Assembly (NCBI RefSeq): GCF_002286985.1
Contig: NZ_NSKC01000008.1
Span: 186,001 to 250,000, forward strand
DNA from: Halorubrum salipaludis
Lineage (GTDB): Archaea > Halobacteriota > Halobacteria > Halobacteriales > Haloferacaceae
Length of the DNA: 64,000 bases
Direction of reading: 5' to 3'
Shown: piece by piece, positions 6,739 to 62,020 of the stretch
How the letters are laid out: every line of letters begins with the position of its first letter
Position numbering within the stretch: the first letter of the stretch is position 1
Made by a program: the position numbers and the translations under genes
Notes under the pieces: generated by a model
Database searches by the model: none
What the model was told of the DNA's origin: nothing
What the model saw: only the letters and a program-made list of their open reading frames with translations

Positions 6739-7189
6739 TTGATCGATAGCGGGAGTGAGTCCCGCAAATCGGTGGGGACGATACGGTATTTAAATAGCTG
6801 TGAGCGACAGGGATGATCGCTTATAAAGGACGCCGCGGTGGCGTGCGCCTCCGAGCGGGCCAAAGGTCCGCGAGGAGACCGCACGAGGGAGTCGGCGGCG
6901 ACCAACGGGAGCCGCCGACGAGGCTGGGGAGGCGTGAGGCTGCGGTTGCTGTGCGGGGTGGGGATCAAAGGGGCAGGCGTGAGGCGCCCAGAGGCGATGT
7001 AAGCACCGCAGGAACGAGTGGAACGAGTGACGAGGAGCGCAGCGAGTGTCTGGGCGCCTCACGCCTGGGGCTTTGCAGGTCTTCACCGCAACACCGTCGA
7101 TCACTTATAAACAGCCGACAGCAACACCACAACTCCACTTATAAACAACCGAACAGCCAATTTGCGAGACTCACTCCCGCAATCGCTCA
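6739..7189 (+). repeat. Structured multi-copy element, copy 1 (intact, terminal inverted repeats)
   Basis: Terminal inverted repeats: GCGGGAGTGAGTCCCGCAAA starting at 6749, and its near-exact reverse complement ending at 7180, with weaker similarity outward to about 6739 and 7189. Inside, in order: TTTAAA (6788-6793) and CTTATAAA (6820-6827); hairpin 1 (about 6848-6880); hairpin 2 (arms 6891-6899 and 6911-6919); a conserved box GAGGCTGGGGAGGCGTGAGG at 6920-6939; hairpin 3 (perfect 19-bp arms 6974-6992 and 7049-7067, closed by CAAAG-GGG and GGG-CTTTG); and two CTTATAAAC boxes near 7104 and 7138. It lies between the divergent sufS and the histidine kinase. Short open frames inside overlap the hairpins and are not conserved as proteins among copies. 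Confidence 0.85.
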
Positions 7190-16157: not shown

Positions 16158-16665
16158 TTGATCGACTGCGGGAGTGAGTGTCGCACGTTGGTGATCTGGT
16201 TGTTTATAAGTGGGATTGAGGTGTTGCTGTCGGCTGTTTATAAGTGATCGATGTGCCCGCGGTGAAGACCTGTAAAGTCCCAGCCGATCACTTATAAACG
16301 GTTAACTGGAGATCGGCGGCGAGGACCTGCAAAGCCCCAGGCGTGAGGCGCCCAGACACTCGCTGCGCTCCTCGTCACTCGTTCCACTCGTTCCTGCGGT
16401 GCTTACATCGTCTCTGGGCGCCTCACGCCTGCCCCTTTGAGCCCCACCCCGCACAGCAACCGCAGCCTCACGCCCCCCCAGCCTCGTCGGCGGCTCCCGT
16501 TGGTCGCCGCCGACTCCCTCGTGCGGTCTCCTCGCGGACCTTCGGCCCGCTCGGAGGCGCACGCCACCGCGGCGTCCTTTATAAGCGATCGTCGCCGCAG
16601 CTCACGTCTGTTTAAATACTCTATCACCACCGCCGATCTGCAACACTCACTCCCGCCATCACTCA
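16158..16665 (-). repeat. Structured multi-copy element, copy 2 (intact, extra tail unit)
   Basis: Same family as copy 1 in reverse orientation. Inverted repeats: GCGGGAGTGAGTGTCGCA from 16168, and its counterpart ending at 16656, with TTGATCGA-like outer extensions. Hairpin 3 arms (16338-16356 and 16413-16431) are the same sequence as copy 1; hairpin 2 arms are 16486-16494 and 16506-16514. Unlike copy 1, the segment with the CTGGGGCTTTG box and TTATAA is partly duplicated (around 16258-16335), which lengthens the element. It fills the gap between the convergent lipoprotein and ATPase genes. Confidence 0.85.
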
Positions 16666-27280: not shown

Positions 27281-28252
27281 ATGACCGACACAGAGCCGGC
27301 GGCCCCGGTCCGGGAGACCGCCGAATCGATCGCGACGATGGAGATCCGCGGCGCGGCGACCATCGCCTCCGCGGCCGCGGAGGCGCTCGCCGAGCAGGCC
27401 GAGGCCGCGGCCGCGTCGGGAGAGACCGCGAGCGACCCCGCCGCCTTCCGGGCGTCGCTGCGCGCCGCGGGGCGGACCCTCCGCGAGACCCGGCCGACCG
27501 CCGTGTCCCTGCCGAACGCCCTCCGCTACGTCCTCCAGCGCATGGAGGGGGAGACGGTCGACGAGCTGCGCCGCAGCGTCGTCGGCGCCAGCGACGCGTT
27601 CGTCCGCCAGCTCGACCGCGCGCAGGAGGACCTCGGGCGGGTCGGCGCGAACCGCCTCGCCGACGGCGACACCGTGATGACCCACTGCCACTCGACCGAC
27701 GCGCTCGCCTGCATCGAGGCCGCCGTCGAGCAGGGGAAGTCGATCTCGGCGGTCGTCAAGGAGACCCGCCCGCGCCAGCAGGGCCACATCACCGCCGAGC
27801 AGCTCCGCGACGCCGGCGTCCCCGTCACGCTGATCGTCGACTCGGCGGCGCGGCGCTACCTCGACGAGGTCGATCACGTCGTCGTCGGCGCCGACTCGAT
27901 CGCGGCGGACGGCGGCGTCATCAACAAGATCGGCACCTCGGGGCTCGCCGTCAACGCCCGCGAGCGCGGCGTCCCGATCATGACCGCCGCCCAGACGATC
28001 AAGCTCCACCCGGAGACGCTGACGGGCCACACCGTCGAGATCGAGATGCGGGACGAGAGCGAGGTGATCGACCCCGAGACCCGCGACGAGATCGGGGAGA
28101 TCGACGTGCGGAACCCGGCGTTCGACGTGACGCCGCCGCGGTACATGGACGCGATCGTCACCGAGCAGGGCCAGTTCCCGCCCGAGAGCATCGTGACGCT
28201 GATGCGGGAGCTGTTCGGCGAGGGCGCCGCCGAGCCGTGGGCCGAGCCATGA
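27281..28252 (+). CDS. Ribose-1,5-bisphosphate isomerase (eIF2B-fold)
   Basis: 323 residues. It converts ribose-1,5-bisphosphate to ribulose-1,5-bisphosphate. The fold is shared with eIF2B-alpha; the isomerase group is recognised by a catalytic Cys and Asp, here C136 (MTHCHSTDALACIEAA) and D205 (VVVGADSIAADGG). The phosphate-binding RPRQQG and NKIGTSGLAV are also present. Followed by PfkB with an ATGA overlap. This activity links the kinase product to the phosphatase and aldolase upstream. The paralogue at 37074 lacks both catalytic residues. Confidence 0.93.
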   Translation: MTDTEPAAPVRETAESIATMEIRGAATIASAAAEALAEQAEAAAASGETASDPAAFRASLRAAGRTLRETRPTAVSLPNALRYVLQRMEGETVDELRRSVVGASDAFVRQLDRAQEDLGRVGANRLADGDTVMTHCHSTDALACIEAAVEQGKSISAVVKETRPRQQGHITAEQLRDAGVPVTLIVDSAARRYLDEVDHVVVGADSIAADGGVINKIGTSGLAVNARERGVPIMTAAQTIKLHPETLTGHTVEIEMRDESEVIDPETRDEIGEIDVRNPAFDVTPPRYMDAIVTEQGQFPPESIVTLMRELFGEGAAEPWAEP

Positions 28253-29403
28253 GCGATGACGGCCCGGGGCGCGACGGGACCGACGACTGGGAGGAGGAGC
28301 TCGCGGAGTGGGACGAGGAGGTCTCCGAGTGGGAGGCCGGAGACGGCGGCTCCGACGGCGACGGAGACGGCACCGCGGCCGGGGACGACCCCGGACCCGA
28401 CCGCGACCCCGTCGACGACGATCCCGACTTAGAGCCGGAGTCCTCGGGCCGCGTCCCGAAGGTGGTCTCGGCCGGTCACATCAACTGGGACGTGACGATC
28501 CACGTCGAGCGGCTGCCGGAGCCGGACGGCGAGACCCGGATCGACTTACTCGAGCAGTCCGGCGGCGGCAGCGCCGCGAACGTCGCGGTCGGGCTCGTGG
28601 GGCTCGGCGGCCAGTCGGTTGTCTTCGGGAGCGTCGGCGGCGACGAGTCGGGGGCGCTGGCGCTCCGCGAGCTGGCGAGCGCCGGCGTCGACCCCGGACA
28701 GGTCCTCGTCGACGCGGACGCGCCGACCTCGGTGAAGTACGCGATCGTCGACGGGAGCGGCGAGCTGCTCATGTTGGCCAACGACGGCGCCAACGAGTCG
28801 TTCACCGCGGCCGAGCTCGACCGGAACACGCTCGCGGCGGCCGACCACCTCCACCTCACGGGCCAGCAGCCGGAGACCGCGGCCGCGCTCGCGACCGCGG
28901 CCGGCGAGGCCGGGACGACTCGGAGCTTCGACCCGGGACGCCGCGTGGGCGACCGCGAGTTCGAGGCCGCGCTCCACGCCGCGGACGTGCTCTTCCTGAA
29001 CGCCCCGGAGGCCGACGCGATCGCCGACGCGACCGACATCGACCCGTGGGAGCCCGACGACCGCGTCGTCGCGATCAAGCTCGGCGAGGAGGGGGCGACG
29101 GTCCGGACACCCCACGGCGACGTGTCGCATCCCGGGTTCGACGTCGACGCCGTCGACACCGTCGGCGCCGGCGACGCGTTCGCGGCCGGCTTCCTCGGCG
29201 CCGCGCTCAGGGACCCCGAGATCACCGGCGGCGGGTTCTCGCACGACCCCCGTGACTACCAGGTGCCGCTGCTCGTCGCCAACGCCTGCGGCGGGATCGC
29301 GGCCGAGACGGTGACCGCCCGCGCCGACCTCTCGTGGGAGCGCGTCCGGTCGGTGATGGGGGAGTCGCCCGAGTCGGACCTGCTGATCGAGATCCGGGTG
29401 TGA
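28249..29403 (+). CDS. PfkB-family kinase, probable ribose-1-phosphate kinase
   Basis: 384 residues from ATG 28249 (4-bp overlap). About 70 N-terminal residues are an acidic, Gly/Asp-rich extension not found in typical PfkB proteins; the kinase domain starts near KVVSAGHINWDVT. Features: GGGSAANVAVGLVGLGG (substrate loop) and catalytic D309 in DTVGAGDAFAAGF with the anion hole. In the haloarchaeal pathway an ATP-dependent PfkB kinase phosphorylates ribose-1-phosphate to ribose-1,5-bisphosphate, the substrate of the adjacent isomerase. Other sugar or nucleoside specificity cannot be ruled out from sequence. Confidence 0.85.
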   Translation: MSDDGPGRDGTDDWEEELAEWDEEVSEWEAGDGGSDGDGDGTAAGDDPGPDRDPVDDDPDLEPESSGRVPKVVSAGHINWDVTIHVERLPEPDGETRIDLLEQSGGGSAANVAVGLVGLGGQSVVFGSVGGDESGALALRELASAGVDPGQVLVDADAPTSVKYAIVDGSGELLMLANDGANESFTAAELDRNTLAAADHLHLTGQQPETAAALATAAGEAGTTRSFDPGRRVGDREFEAALHAADVLFLNAPEADAIADATDIDPWEPDDRVVAIKLGEEGATVRTPHGDVSHPGFDVDAVDTVGAGDAFAAGFLGAALRDPEITGGGFSHDPRDYQVPLLVANACGGIAAETVTARADLSWERVRSVMGESPESDLLIEIRV

Positions 29404-29472
29404 GACGGCGCCGTGAATCTGGTTCTCCGGACGCGTTGTCGCACGATCGAGCCGATCGTTGAAGCGGGCCTT

Positions 29473-29927
29473 TTGATCGAGTTCGGGAGTGGGTATTGCA
29501 GATCGGTAGCGGCGAGACGGTATTTAAACAGCCAAGAGCGACGACGATCGCTTATAAATGACGACGCGGTGGCGCGCGCCTCCGAACGGCCGCCACCGGT
29601 GGCCGTGAGGAGCGCGTGCGAGGGAGTCGCTGGCGCCTTATAAGGCGCCAGCGACGAGGCTGGGGAGGCGTGAGGCTGCGGTTGCGGTGTGGGTGGGACT
29701 CAAAGGGGCAGCCGCGAGGGGAGCTTAGGCGACGCTAAGCACCGCAGAGAGCGAGTGAAACGAGCGACCGAGGAGCGCAGCGAGCGTAAGCTCCCCTCGC
29801 GGCTGGGGCTTTGGAGGCCTTCACCGCGGGCACATCGATCACTTATAAACACCTGTCAGCAACACCCAAATCCAACTTATAAACAACCGAACAGCCAATT
29901 TGCGAGACTCACTCCCGAAGTCGATCA
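29473..29927 (+). repeat. Structured multi-copy element, copy 3 (intact)
   Basis: Inverted repeats TTGATCGAGTTCGGGAGTG (from 29473) and the matching end to 29927. TTTAAA (29523-29528) and CTTATAAA near 29551 precede hairpin 1 (about 29577-29612). Hairpin 2 is a perfect 30-nt palindrome (29626-29655) with TTATAA at its centre. Hairpin 3 arms are 29709-29727 and 29787-29805, perfect, and different in sequence from copies 1 and 2. The right end (29879-29917) is identical to copy 1 over about 40 bp. It occupies the convergent gap between the PfkB and lipoprotein genes. Confidence 0.85.
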
Positions 29928-30019
29928 CGCTGCTGGGTCTGTACAGATCGGATTCGGGTCCGAACAAGTCACCTGGCGAGGAATCGATAGTATTTCGACG
30001 ACCCCCGAACGCGACCGCG

Positions 30020-31234
30020 CTACCCGACGTAGTCGAACGCCGCCGCGACGTCGGCGGCGCCGAAGAAGACGAACCGGTAGCGACCCGGCTGCAGGTCGGG
30101 ACAGACCCGGAGCCCGCCCGGCTGGTTCTCGTCGGCGACGAGCCCGGACTCGGTCAGCTCGAACTCCCACGCGACAGTCTCGCCCGGCCGGTGAGCGATC
30201 GCCTCGTCCGTGTAGCCGAACCGGTCGTCGTCGCCGCCGCGCACGTCCATCCACCCGTCCTCGGTGAGCACCTCGACGTTGTACTTCCCGTGGTTGCCGA
30301 CGTATTCCTCGCGGGCGGAGACGTTGGTCAGCTCGATCCGCACGTCGTCGCCGCGCTCGAACGTCAGCGCCGCCGCGCGGTCGTCGCCGTCGTACGCGGG
30401 GTTCACGACGCGGAGCTCGAGGGGGCCGCTCCCGTCGCCGTCTTCCCCGGTACCGCCGCCCGATCCCCACGAGACGCCGTCGGAGTAGAAGCCCGGGTGG
30501 CGCTCGAAGGCGCCGTCCTCGCAGTCGAGCGGCGCTGGCACGGTTTGGGGATCCCCGTCGGGTCTGACGAATCCGTCGAGCCCGGCGGGATCCAGAATTC
30601 CCCCGTCGCCGGTCAGCTCCGCGGTCTCGTCCCAGCCGTTCGTCACCGAGAGCCGGAGCGCGTCCGGCAGCGGGTCGGCGGTGACCCGGAGCAGCGCGCC
30701 GGAGAAGGTGACCGCCTCGCCGCAGGCCTCGTCCTCCGCGGCGGTGTTCTCGACGGTCACGCTCGCGACGAGCGTCCCGTCCTCGACGGCGACGTCGTCG
30801 AACGCGATCCGGTCGTGGCAGGTGGTGGGTCCGACCGACTCGACGTACGCGAGCACGGACGACGAGAAGTCGGTCGCCTCGACGAACTCCCCCACCGCCG
30901 CGGGCGCGTCGTCGAACAGCCAGCGCGCCTCGTCCTCGTCGGTGAACAGGGTACAGAAGCCGCGTCGTGACTCGCGGTCCCACGCCGGCCCGGAGAGCGC
31001 GCCGCCGGCCTGCTGGACCGCCGTGTCGGTGAGTCCGTCGCCGCCGTCCTCGCCGTCTTCCCCGTCCCTGCCGTCCTCGCCGTCCTCGCCGTCGGCTCCG
31101 TCGCCGGTTCCGCCGTCGCTCCCGTCGTCGCCGTCCCCCGCGCCGGGCTCGACCTCGTCGGTACAGCCGGCGAGCGCGGCGACGCTTCCCGCCCCGATGC
31201 CGTATATCGCCGTTCGACGCGTGAGTTCGGTCAT
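30020..31234 (-). CDS. Haloarchaeal lipoprotein with Gly-Asp-Glu repeat linker
   Basis: 404 residues from ATG 31234. The signal MTELTRRTAIYGIG carries twin arginines and a lipobox (LAGC) at about residue 24. A low-complexity linker follows with repeated GEDGED/GRDGED units (about residues 30-68), then a globular part with several Cys residues (GFCTLF, TTCHDR, DEACGE, LDCEDG). The C-terminus (LRVCPDLQPGRYRFVFFG) resembles the lipoprotein at 15469. A leftward TATA-like CTTATGTG lies near 31262. Probably anchored outside the cell; function unknown. Its 3' end faces repeat copy 3. Confidence 0.75.
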   Translation of the reverse strand: MTELTRRTAIYGIGAGSVAALAGCTDEVEPGAGDGDDGSDGGTGDGADGEDGEDGRDGEDGEDGGDGLTDTAVQQAGGALSGPAWDRESRRGFCTLFTDEDEARWLFDDAPAAVGEFVEATDFSSSVLAYVESVGPTTCHDRIAFDDVAVEDGTLVASVTVENTAAEDEACGEAVTFSGALLRVTADPLPDALRLSVTNGWDETAELTGDGGILDPAGLDGFVRPDGDPQTVPAPLDCEDGAFERHPGFYSDGVSWGSGGGTGEDGDGSGPLELRVVNPAYDGDDRAAALTFERGDDVRIELTNVSAREEYVGNHGKYNVEVLTEDGWMDVRGGDDDRFGYTDEAIAHRPGETVAWEFELTESGLVADENQPGGLRVCPDLQPGRYRFVFFGAADVAAAFDYVG

Positions 31235-31556
31235 GACGGGCGTGGCTACGACGCCCCCACATAAGGGCTTCCTGTAGGCGCAAAGACCTCTCTGTGTAAC
31301 GCCGGCGTCGGCTGCGGTCGAGCGCCCGCTCCGTCGAGGGTGGGAATCACCGCTCCGAGAACGACTCTCTGCGGCCGATCGAACCACCGTCTCGACGATC
31401 GTCGTCGATCCGTGAAAAACCGTGAGAGGACTCGATAAAGAATTAGGGCCGATATGAGGCCGTTTTAAAACGTCGGCGAGGGGGCGAGAAACGTGGTGAA
31501 ATCGTCCGAACCCTCTGCGGGCTATATGTGGTCTCCAGTCGTAGGGAGAGGTGTCC
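31235..31556. other. Divergent intergenic region with promoters
   Basis: Separates the lipoprotein (leftward) and the small membrane protein (rightward). It contains the palindrome CGTTTTAAAACG at 31461-31472 and a TATA-like CTATATG at about 31522-31528 for the gene at 31557. No gene is seen. Confidence 0.45.
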
Positions 31557-31778
31557 ATGTCAACCCCCGCTTCCACGCGCCTCGCGTCCGGCCGGCAGGT
31601 CGCCGGACTGATGACCGGCACGGTGAAGGCCGCCGCCTTCTGGGCGGCCATCGCCATCCCGACCGCCTACCCCGTGCTCCTCTACATGGGGCTCGAAGGC
31701 ACCCCCGGTCTGCTGTTCGTCGGCCTGCTGTTCGCGAACGCCCTCGCGCTCGCGCTCGGCCACGACTACAAGCGCTGA
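31557..31778 (+). CDS. Small two-helix membrane protein
   Basis: 73 residues from ATG 31557; a GTG two codons earlier is possible. Two hydrophobic segments, about 24-43 (AAAFWAAIAIPTAYPVLLYM) and 48-67 (TPGLLFVGLLFANALALALG), with a positively charged end HDYKR. No known family is recognised. It is followed by the DUF255 gene 128 bp downstream, on the same strand. Confidence 0.65.
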   Translation: MSTPASTRLASGRQVAGLMTGTVKAAAFWAAIAIPTAYPVLLYMGLEGTPGLLFVGLLFANALALALGHDYKR

Positions 31779-34583: not shown

Positions 34584-35049
34584 GCGATCGATCTCGGGAG
34601 TGGGTGTTGCAGATCGGTGGTGGTGATAGGGTATTTAAACAGCCGTGAGCGACGGTCATGATATCTTATAAATAGCGGTGCAGTGGCGCGTGCCTCCGAG
34701 GCCGTTTCGCGGCCGAGGAGCACGCGCGAGGGAGTCGCTGGCGGCCGAGCGAAGCGAAGGCCGCCAGCGACGAGGCTGGGGAGGTGTGAGGCTGCGGTGC
34801 TGTAGCGGGCGGGTGGGACTCAAAGGGGCAGTCGCTGTGGGCGGCGCAGGCGACGCGAGCACCGCAGCGAAGGAGCGAAGCGACTGAGCGAGGAGCGCGG
34901 CGAGCGTGCGCCGCCCACAGCGGCTGGGGCTTTGCAGACCCTCATCGTAGCGTCGTCGATCGCTTATAAACATCCGCTAGCGACACGCCAATCCGGCTTA
35001 TAAACAATCTCTCCACCAACATGCGAGATTCACTCCCGAAACCGATCAA
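34584..35049 (+). repeat. Structured multi-copy element, copy 4 (intact)
   Basis: Ends: GATCGATCTCGGGAGTGGGT (34585-34604) and the inverted counterpart to 35049 (CACTCCCGAAACCGATCAA). TTTAAA near 34634 and CTTATAAA near 34666 precede hairpin 1 (GGCCG-TTTCG-CGGCC inside CTCC/GGAG). Hairpin 2 arms 34734-34746 and 34759-34771 are perfect 13-bp arms; hairpin 3 arms 34829-34848 and 34907-34926 pair throughout with one G-U. All three stems differ from copies 1-3. It lies between the convergent TrmB-like and mptA genes. Confidence 0.85.
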
Positions 35050-46106: not shown

Positions 46107-46475
46107 ACGGAGTGAGAGACCCGAATAGCTCCGAAATCCTGGCCGCTCGGTTATAAATCGCTGACTGTGGACCGGCAGTGAACACCTCCAAAGCCCCAGT
46201 CGCGACGACTCGCGTGACTCGCTGCGGTCCTCACTCACTCGCTGCGCTCGTTCCTTGCGTCGTCAAGCGTGTCCTCGCGACTGCCCCTTTGAGTCCCACC
46301 CCCGCAACCGCACAGCACCTCACGCCTCCCCAACCTCGCGGCTCCCTTCGGTCGCCGCGTCCCTCGCGCGTGCTCTCGCCGGCGGCGTCGCCGCCGGCTG
46401 TCAGAGAGACCGAAGGTCTCTCCCTACTCGCGGCCGCCTTCGGCGGCACGCTCACAGGCACGCGCCACCGCGTCG
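46107..46475 (-). repeat. Structured multi-copy element, copy 5 (degraded, truncated)
   Basis: Reverse orientation. The plus-strand left end (ACGGAGTGAGAGAC, from 46107) is a decayed terminal repeat; the other terminal repeat is missing, and the element stops about 12 bp before the nurA stop codon. Hairpin 3 is reduced to 9-bp arms (46197-46205 and 46275-46283) but keeps CAAAG/CTTTG (46189-46193, 46287-46291) and the GGG/GGG loop, shown as CCC on this strand. Hairpin 2 has 6-bp arms (46337-46342, 46354-46359). Lies in the convergent gap between CPBP and nurA. Confidence 0.75.
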
Positions 46476-61460: not shown

Positions 61461-62020
61461 CGGCGTTTATAAATAGGCGATCGATTCGCGGTGACGATTT
61501 TCAAAGCCCGGGCACTCGCTTATAAATAGTAACCAGCAGATCGCCAGCGAACACTGTCAAAGCCCCAGCCGCTCACTTATAAGGAGTTGCCAACAGATCG
61601 CCAGCGAACACTGTCAAAGCCCCAGCCGCGAGGGCGGCGTACGCTCGCTGCGCTCCTCGTCACTCGCGTTGCTCGTTCCTGCGGTGCTAGCGTCACCTAA
61701 GCCGCCCTCGCGGCTGCCCCTTTGAGTCCCACCCAACCGCAGACCGCCGGAAGACGGTCCTGCTCGCTCACTGCTCGCGGCTTCGCCGCTCGCCAGTCGA
61801 GGTGCCCGCTTCGCTCGCACCTCGCACCGTTCGCTGCGCGGGCTGCGACTTCCGTGCTCCCGCTCGCTCCCGTCGGTCGCTCGCGGGACCGCAGCCTCAC
61901 GCCTCCCCAGCTTCGTCGGTGGTCCTCCGCGTTGCTCCGGACCACCGACTCCCTCACGCGTGCTTCTCGGCCGCGGGGCGGCCTCGAAGGCACGCGCCAC
62001 CGCAGTTCATTTATAAACAA
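61461..62020 (-). repeat. Structured multi-copy element, copy 6 (expanded, terminal repeats lost)
   Basis: Reverse orientation. Hairpin 3 arms (61623-61638, 61701-61716) are perfect for 16 bp with CAAAG/CTTTG outside and GGG/GGG loops (CCC on this strand). Hairpin 2 arms are 61915-61925 and 61939-61949. The CTTTG-end module is amplified: a 36-bp segment is identical at 61537-61572 and 61594-61629, with a degenerate third unit around 61480-61515, each followed or preceded by TTATAA. Between hairpins 3 and 2 an additional 150 bp or so (about 61741-61890) has further short inverted repeats. No clear terminal inverted repeat remains. Confidence 0.75.

Follow-up and report, generated by a model that had tools for sequence, protein, structure and literature searches.

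A MITE-like intergenic repeat of Halorubrum carrying a three-hairpin core, with stem arms that look mostly copied from each other

The long hairpin studied here, hairpin 3 of a Halorubrum salipaludis intergenic gap, forms part of an element of about 590 bp that is probably a MITE-like non-autonomous mobile repeat, with its stems kept by template switching and the loops and flanks of its core under purifying selection. The initial annotation of the window (the whole 64,000-nucleotide stretch of DNA that was analysed) had taken the compensatory changes in this hairpin as selection on pairing rather than on sequence, the hallmark of a functional RNA or of a DNA hairpin bound by a protein. The covariation and the conserved loops behind that reading were recovered. 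The matching of the arms, however, fits template switching on DNA, and covariation alone is here no hallmark of RNA-level selection.

The repeat family is apparently very abundant and intergenic in Halorubrum and its relatives, and it is absent from Rfam and the open-access papers searched. Its hundreds of near-parallel copies offer a natural experiment that sets selection on pairing against the maintenance of hairpins by template switching. This distinction bears on every covariation-based claim of a functional RNA.

Results

The element in the window

The gap that hosts the element is flanked by a PfkB-type kinase gene (28237-29403, + strand; Pfam PF00294) and a convergent gene (30020-31657, - strand). 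The element and its parts were located as follows:

29405..29995, + strand: whole mobile element of about 590 bp, ends approximate, delimited from occupied versus empty orthologous gaps (differing in length by about 590-620 bp) and end profiles
29474..29506, + strand: left inner inverted repeat, motif TGATCGANNNCGGGAGTGRGTNNYGCA
29521..29529, + strand: TATTTAAAC, TATA-box-like; most full copies have one (direct reading and end profiles)
29549..29557, + strand: CTTATAAA, putative TATA-box-like motif (consensus)
29566..29826, + strand: conserved three-hairpin core, closed by GCGGTG...CACCGC
29568..29619, + strand: hairpin 1 (RNA fold)
29626..29655, + strand: hairpin 2, a 30-bp perfect palindrome in this copy
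29701..29813, + strand: hairpin 3, the feature of the initial annotation
29709..29730, + strand: 5' arm of the 22-pair stem of hairpin 3; begins CAG, pair 19 usually a G-G mismatch
29741..29784, + strand: apical part of hairpin 3 with conserved GCACCGCAG and GAGGAGCGCAGCGAG and three nested covarying pairs; motifs kept in other genera
29784..29805, + strand: 3' arm of this stem, with CTG at its end
29895..29927, - strand: right inner inverted repeat, pairing with 29474-29506

The two inner inverted repeats are complementary at 82%, and the TGATCGANNNCGGGAGTGRGTNNYGCA motif matched 69 times in the own genome versus 3 times in the control. Copies related to the CTTATAAA box were seen at 29841-29851 and 29875-29885. 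The outer 70-90 bp or so on each side are decayed versions of two end types, both of which begin with GGCTCTGTTGAAATCC in younger copies, as judged from end profiles. The part common to most relatives within the genus is the three-hairpin core, most of them matching positions 7-267 of the query. The arms of hairpin 3 (29701-29730 and 29784-29813) are 87% complementary, and the stems of hairpin 2, like those of hairpin 3, vary among copies yet remain paired. The core (29560-29860) folded much more stably than its dinucleotide shuffles on either strand, with z values of -6.9 on the + strand and -7.3 on the - strand.

Copies in the window, the genome and the family

The hairpin anchor GGGACTCAAAGGGGCA was found in six copies in the window:

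6960, 29695 and 34815, + strand: GGGACTCAAAGGGGCA anchors
16430-16445, 46282-46297 and 61715-61730, - strand: GGGACTCAAAGGGGCA anchors
6740..7189, + strand: further repeat copy
16159..16665, - strand: further repeat copy, its site empty in most relatives
34585..35048, + strand: further repeat copy; at least 13 of the examined species have a copy at this site
46189..46297, - strand: hairpin 3 of a further copy, 13-pair class
61615..61730, - strand: hairpin 3 of a further copy

BLAST against the own genome gave 40 scored copies from 164 candidates, and the anchor GGGACTCAAAGGGGCRG, with up to two mismatches allowed, matched 127 times versus twice for its reversed control. The count of this anchor ranged from 0 to 193 per genome across 53 genomes of the genus. 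Among GTDB genomes, the named loci with the exact anchor all came from Halorubrum except for one uncultured archaeon. Within the family, relatives of the repeat turned up in 21 of 28 genera (115 of 171 genomes). The element was nearly absent from plasmids (three partial matches). Annotated phages contained no match to it, and a phage or viral origin was set aside on that ground; viral contigs gave 15 matches to a 15-mer. Rfam yielded 0 matches at the gathering score, with weak matches only and none close to that score. No paper describing the repeat was found in the open-access literature, and an earlier description elsewhere is possible.

Several variants of the repeat were noted. A second class of hairpin 3 (e.g., loci L015 and L022, and 46189-46297 in the window) pairs over about 13 bases and then opens into a recurrent internal loop of the GAAGCACGG / CCGCGCGA type. 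In loci L035, L037, L038 and L042, the loops of hairpins 1 and 3 carry at their tips additional perfect small hairpins resembling expansion segments. Locus L044 (about 1200-1520) holds a short derivative with inner inverted repeats and TATAAA repeats and without the three-hairpin core. In the own genome, the first or last 320 bases or so of contigs C23, C26 and C27 lie within repeat copies; with several contigs ending in this way, the repeat evidently leads to assembly breaks.

Genes were called by a codon model that had Pfam-confirmed genes as its training set, and none of 166 copies overlapped one. Of these copies, 91 (55%) lay between convergent genes, compared with 101 of the 681 other gaps of these loci (15%); divergent gaps were under-represented. 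Promoter avoidance would account for this preference, and so would a role at 3' ends.

Mobility and ends

Of the 30 relatives examined, most have a gap of 20-60 bp at the window site; three carry a copy there, one of them reversed. Two further sites showed the same pattern of occupied and empty gaps between species. One of the two, occupied in at least 13 species, included a clade whose copies had lost the terminal repeats. Occupied and empty gaps differed by about 590-620 bp whatever the orientation of the copy. The 454-bp unit alone is shorter than this, as the element extends another 70-90 bp beyond it to either side. Target duplications were searched for at the inner inverted repeat and none were found, since the true ends lie that much further out. 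In 12 copies, two of them near-duplicates, target duplications of 8 bp showed 61.5% identity versus 27% expected (z = 6.8), at this length only. The element of about 590 bp is too short for a transposase gene or lacks one, the flanking genes lying outside it, and it has terminal inverted repeats (the inner repeats and, in younger copies, inverted GGCTCTGTTGAAA tips) and a target duplication of fixed length, as MITEs do.

The GGCTCTGTTGAAA tips gave 37 matches versus 1 in the control. The tip and about 30 bp next to it are common to the element and to remnants of IS5-family transposase units, and a tip was located 52 bp upstream of one such remnant (NF033579, E = 8e-27, below the family cut-off). 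The search for an intact autonomous partner with both end types recovered transposase remnants only. An IS6-family origin, suggested by GGCTCTGTTGAAA, was rejected: the IS6 (PF13610) elements read end in GTGTTCAGATAAGG..., unlike the tips of the element. The other-genus loci that were read contained the core largely without GGCTCTGTTGAAA tips around it, so the core is not tied to the tips.

Two gene-carrying cassettes in the own genome, L369:554-1513 (DUF2321/Hypoth_Ymh; contig C5) and L358:266-1513 (SBF-type transporter; contig C3), have GGCTCTGTTGAAA tips and perfect 8-bp target duplications and no transposase inside. They may be passenger cassettes on the same IS5-type ends. In locus L231 (genome G036), a tandem AAGTCCGCGTGTAGGTCG array lies at the stop codon of the PfkB orthologue, at its 3' end, in an otherwise empty gap.

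Covariation of hairpin 3

The variant stem sequences reported by the initial annotation were present in the six copies of the window, and in each copy the 3' arm matched the changed 5' arm with small exceptions: a T-G at stem pair 3 (counted from 0) in copy 4, mismatches from the 10th pair inward in copy 5 and one T-C mismatch in copy 6. Watson-Crick pairing across 99 copies of the 22-bp class reached 98.4% in register, as against 20-26% after sliding the 3' arm by one base and 20-40% after sliding it by 1-3 bases. The outer 13 pairs of 156 copies had on average 0.71 mismatches versus 3.36 when the arms were re-dealt among copies. Nearly all stem positions showed several Watson-Crick types in this set, and stem pair 19 was a G-G mismatch in 81 of the 156.

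Covariation was tested with the G-test/APC statistic in our own R-scape-like implementation, not R-scape itself, on an alignment anchored on both arms; an unstructured MAFFT run over the 156 hairpins placed the stem wrongly. The null consisted of 60 alignments with the inferred substitutions redistributed over a FastTree tree. Ten pairs reached E<0.05 against this null, which places paralogous copies on a tree despite probable gene conversion among them: seven of the 24 in the stem and three nested apical ones. Significantly covarying stem pairs, as anticipated by the initial annotation, were therefore present above the phylogenetic background, and the apical loop motifs described there as conserved proved to be so. 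Other genera retained the loops GACGCAAGCACCGCAG and GAGGAGCGCAGCGAG together with the flanks GGGACTGAAAGGGG / GGGGCTTTC; their stems were unrelated but still paired.

How the stems change

Selection on an RNA predicts one-sided intermediates and an excess of G-U over A-C on the transcribed strand. Closely related copies differed by 238 two-sided versus 48 one-sided stem changes, a ratio that gene conversion between copies can mimic. With stem pair 3 excluded, 136 inferred events led from one Watson-Crick pair to another and 31 to any mismatch, in a parsimony on paralogous copies that, on long branches, counts two quick single steps and one double step alike. The inferred events included 13 to G-T versus 7 to A-C. 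Among about 2965 pairs in Halorubrum, 40 were G-T (about 1%) and 14 A-C; without stem pair 3, which holds about half of the G-T, the numbers were 21 and 11. Other genera had 8 G-T versus 9 A-C. Pairing was independent of loop decay (rho 0.12, p 0.13), and the whole apical part was inverted between otherwise intact arms in 2 of 158 copies (L160:4917 and L186:5105).

Homogenisation of the arms together with inversion of the spacer is a published signature of template switching by DNA polymerase (PMC8604942), and RNA hairpins have been suggested to arise and persist through such switching (PMC8794818). We attribute the arm matching mostly to this process because of the two-sided changes, the rarity of G-T and its lack of a clear excess over A-C, the independence from loop decay and the inverted loops: most of it looks like one arm being copied from the other during DNA replication. 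Constraint on the parts outside the stem remains, because the mean divergence of the outer flanks was only 4% versus 37% for stem pairs 3-18 (21% for the apical loop) and a specific mismatch persists. Neither this G-G mismatch nor the class-specific internal loop has been erased, and template switching alone would predict neither. Some function of the core, as an RNA, a DNA hairpin or a 3'-end boundary, is likely, judging from the conserved loop and flank sequences and the conserved G-G mismatch; the loops and the mismatch, together with the retention across the family, allow for a functional RNA or DNA hairpin.

Discussion

The probable explanation given at the outset would work in the following way. 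In Halorubrum, the conserved three-hairpin core would be carried between IS5-type transposon ends, with an IS5-family transposase probably mobilising it in trans and each insertion generating the 8-bp target duplication that was detected. Copies would then be retained mostly in gaps between convergent genes, where they were observed. During replication, template switching would copy arm from arm and at times invert the loop, as the pattern of changes suggests. Purifying selection would hold the loops, internal loops and flanks, and the core may function as a structured transcript or a DNA hairpin at the 3' ends of genes. In a possible reading, to which we give less credence, the core itself is a module of structured RNA (or of DNA hairpin) that occurs throughout the family, has not been described before and serves a conserved function at the 3' ends of genes; it would be older than and independent of the Halorubrum transposon ends, with template-switched stems and selected loops.

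The view of the initial annotation, namely a functional RNA transcribed from the TATA-like boxes with pairing kept by selection, draws on covariation beyond phylogeny, including the nested apical pairs, and on 13 genera in which loops and internal loops are conserved and stems are free. Orthologous copies with different stems still pair, and TATA-like boxes precede the core in Halorubrum; in the other-genus copies read, however, no obvious TATA-like box lay directly upstream of it. The scarcity of G-U, which exceeds A-C weakly at best in Halorubrum and not at all in other genera, makes this view doubtful, as do the equally unusual stability of the fold on both strands, the loop inversions, the undiminished pairing of copies with decayed loops and the lack of an Rfam match. 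Haloarchaeal ncRNAs packaged in EVs were considered and set aside; the study at hand covers other species and reports no motif common to its ncRNAs (PMC10927574). We regard as rather unlikely a bidirectional transcription boundary, in which both convergent genes rely on the hairpins for ending or stabilising their 3' ends. The excess of convergent and deficit of divergent gaps argue for it, and so does long retention at one convergent site without terminal repeats, but selection against insertions near promoters yields the same bias, the same sites are empty in many species and about 45% of the copies are not convergent.

Perfect pairing could instead be selected in DNA, in a hairpin or cruciform bound by a nucleoid, recombination or replication protein. 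Near-perfect Watson-Crick stems with no clear G-U preference, the palindromic hairpin 2 and the conserved loop sequences are in keeping with this; yet no candidate protein was found, the tolerated loop inversions are not predicted and pairing is kept in decayed-loop copies too, and we hold this explanation to be improbable. A single-strand transposition substrate, with the hairpins as transposase sites as in REPINs or IS605-derived PATEs, recalls the compensatory changes in the REPIN hairpin spacer (PMC3116915). It is very improbable given the 8-bp duplications and the inverted IS5-type tips, the occurrence of the core without tips in other genera and the lack of terminal inverted repeats and duplications in haloarchaeal PATEs (PMC3119063).

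Comparison with known systems

The IS-mobilised MITEs of Haloquadratum (PMC3119063) resemble the element in being non-coding, about 0.6 kb long and present in many intergenic copies, with IS-family inverted ends and target duplications. The present repeat differs from them in reaching up to about 190 anchor matches per genome and being nearly absent from plasmids, in having an interior, but not ends, conserved across 21 genera, and in its three hairpins with covarying arms. ERIC and NEMIS of bacteria are palindromic, structured repeats and, like the element, abundant, mobile and intergenic. They are thought to be MITEs (PMC3116915). The element differs in being archaeal and larger, and its modular core of three hairpins combines conserved loops with variable stems.

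REPINs (PMC3116915) are likewise extragenic and of high copy number, with a hairpin in which compensatory changes are common. They go with RAYT tyrosine transposases, and the REPIN/RAYT group is recognised by REP doublets, an associated RAYT and no fixed target duplication; the element, with its 8-bp duplications and IS5-type tips, falls outside it. The SMRs and PATEs of Haloquadratum are also haloarchaeal repeats without a transposase, but neither gives target duplications, PATEs lack terminal inverted repeats, and SMR-A is about 110 bp long and targets IS605-type elements (PMC3119063). A parallel in the behaviour of the stems is offered by template-switch mutations at inverted repeats, in which arms are made identical, compensatory changes span several bases and the spacer or loop is inverted (PMC8604942, PMC8794818). 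Compared with those published cases, hundreds of copies of one archaeal repeat here provide parallel natural replicates of the process.
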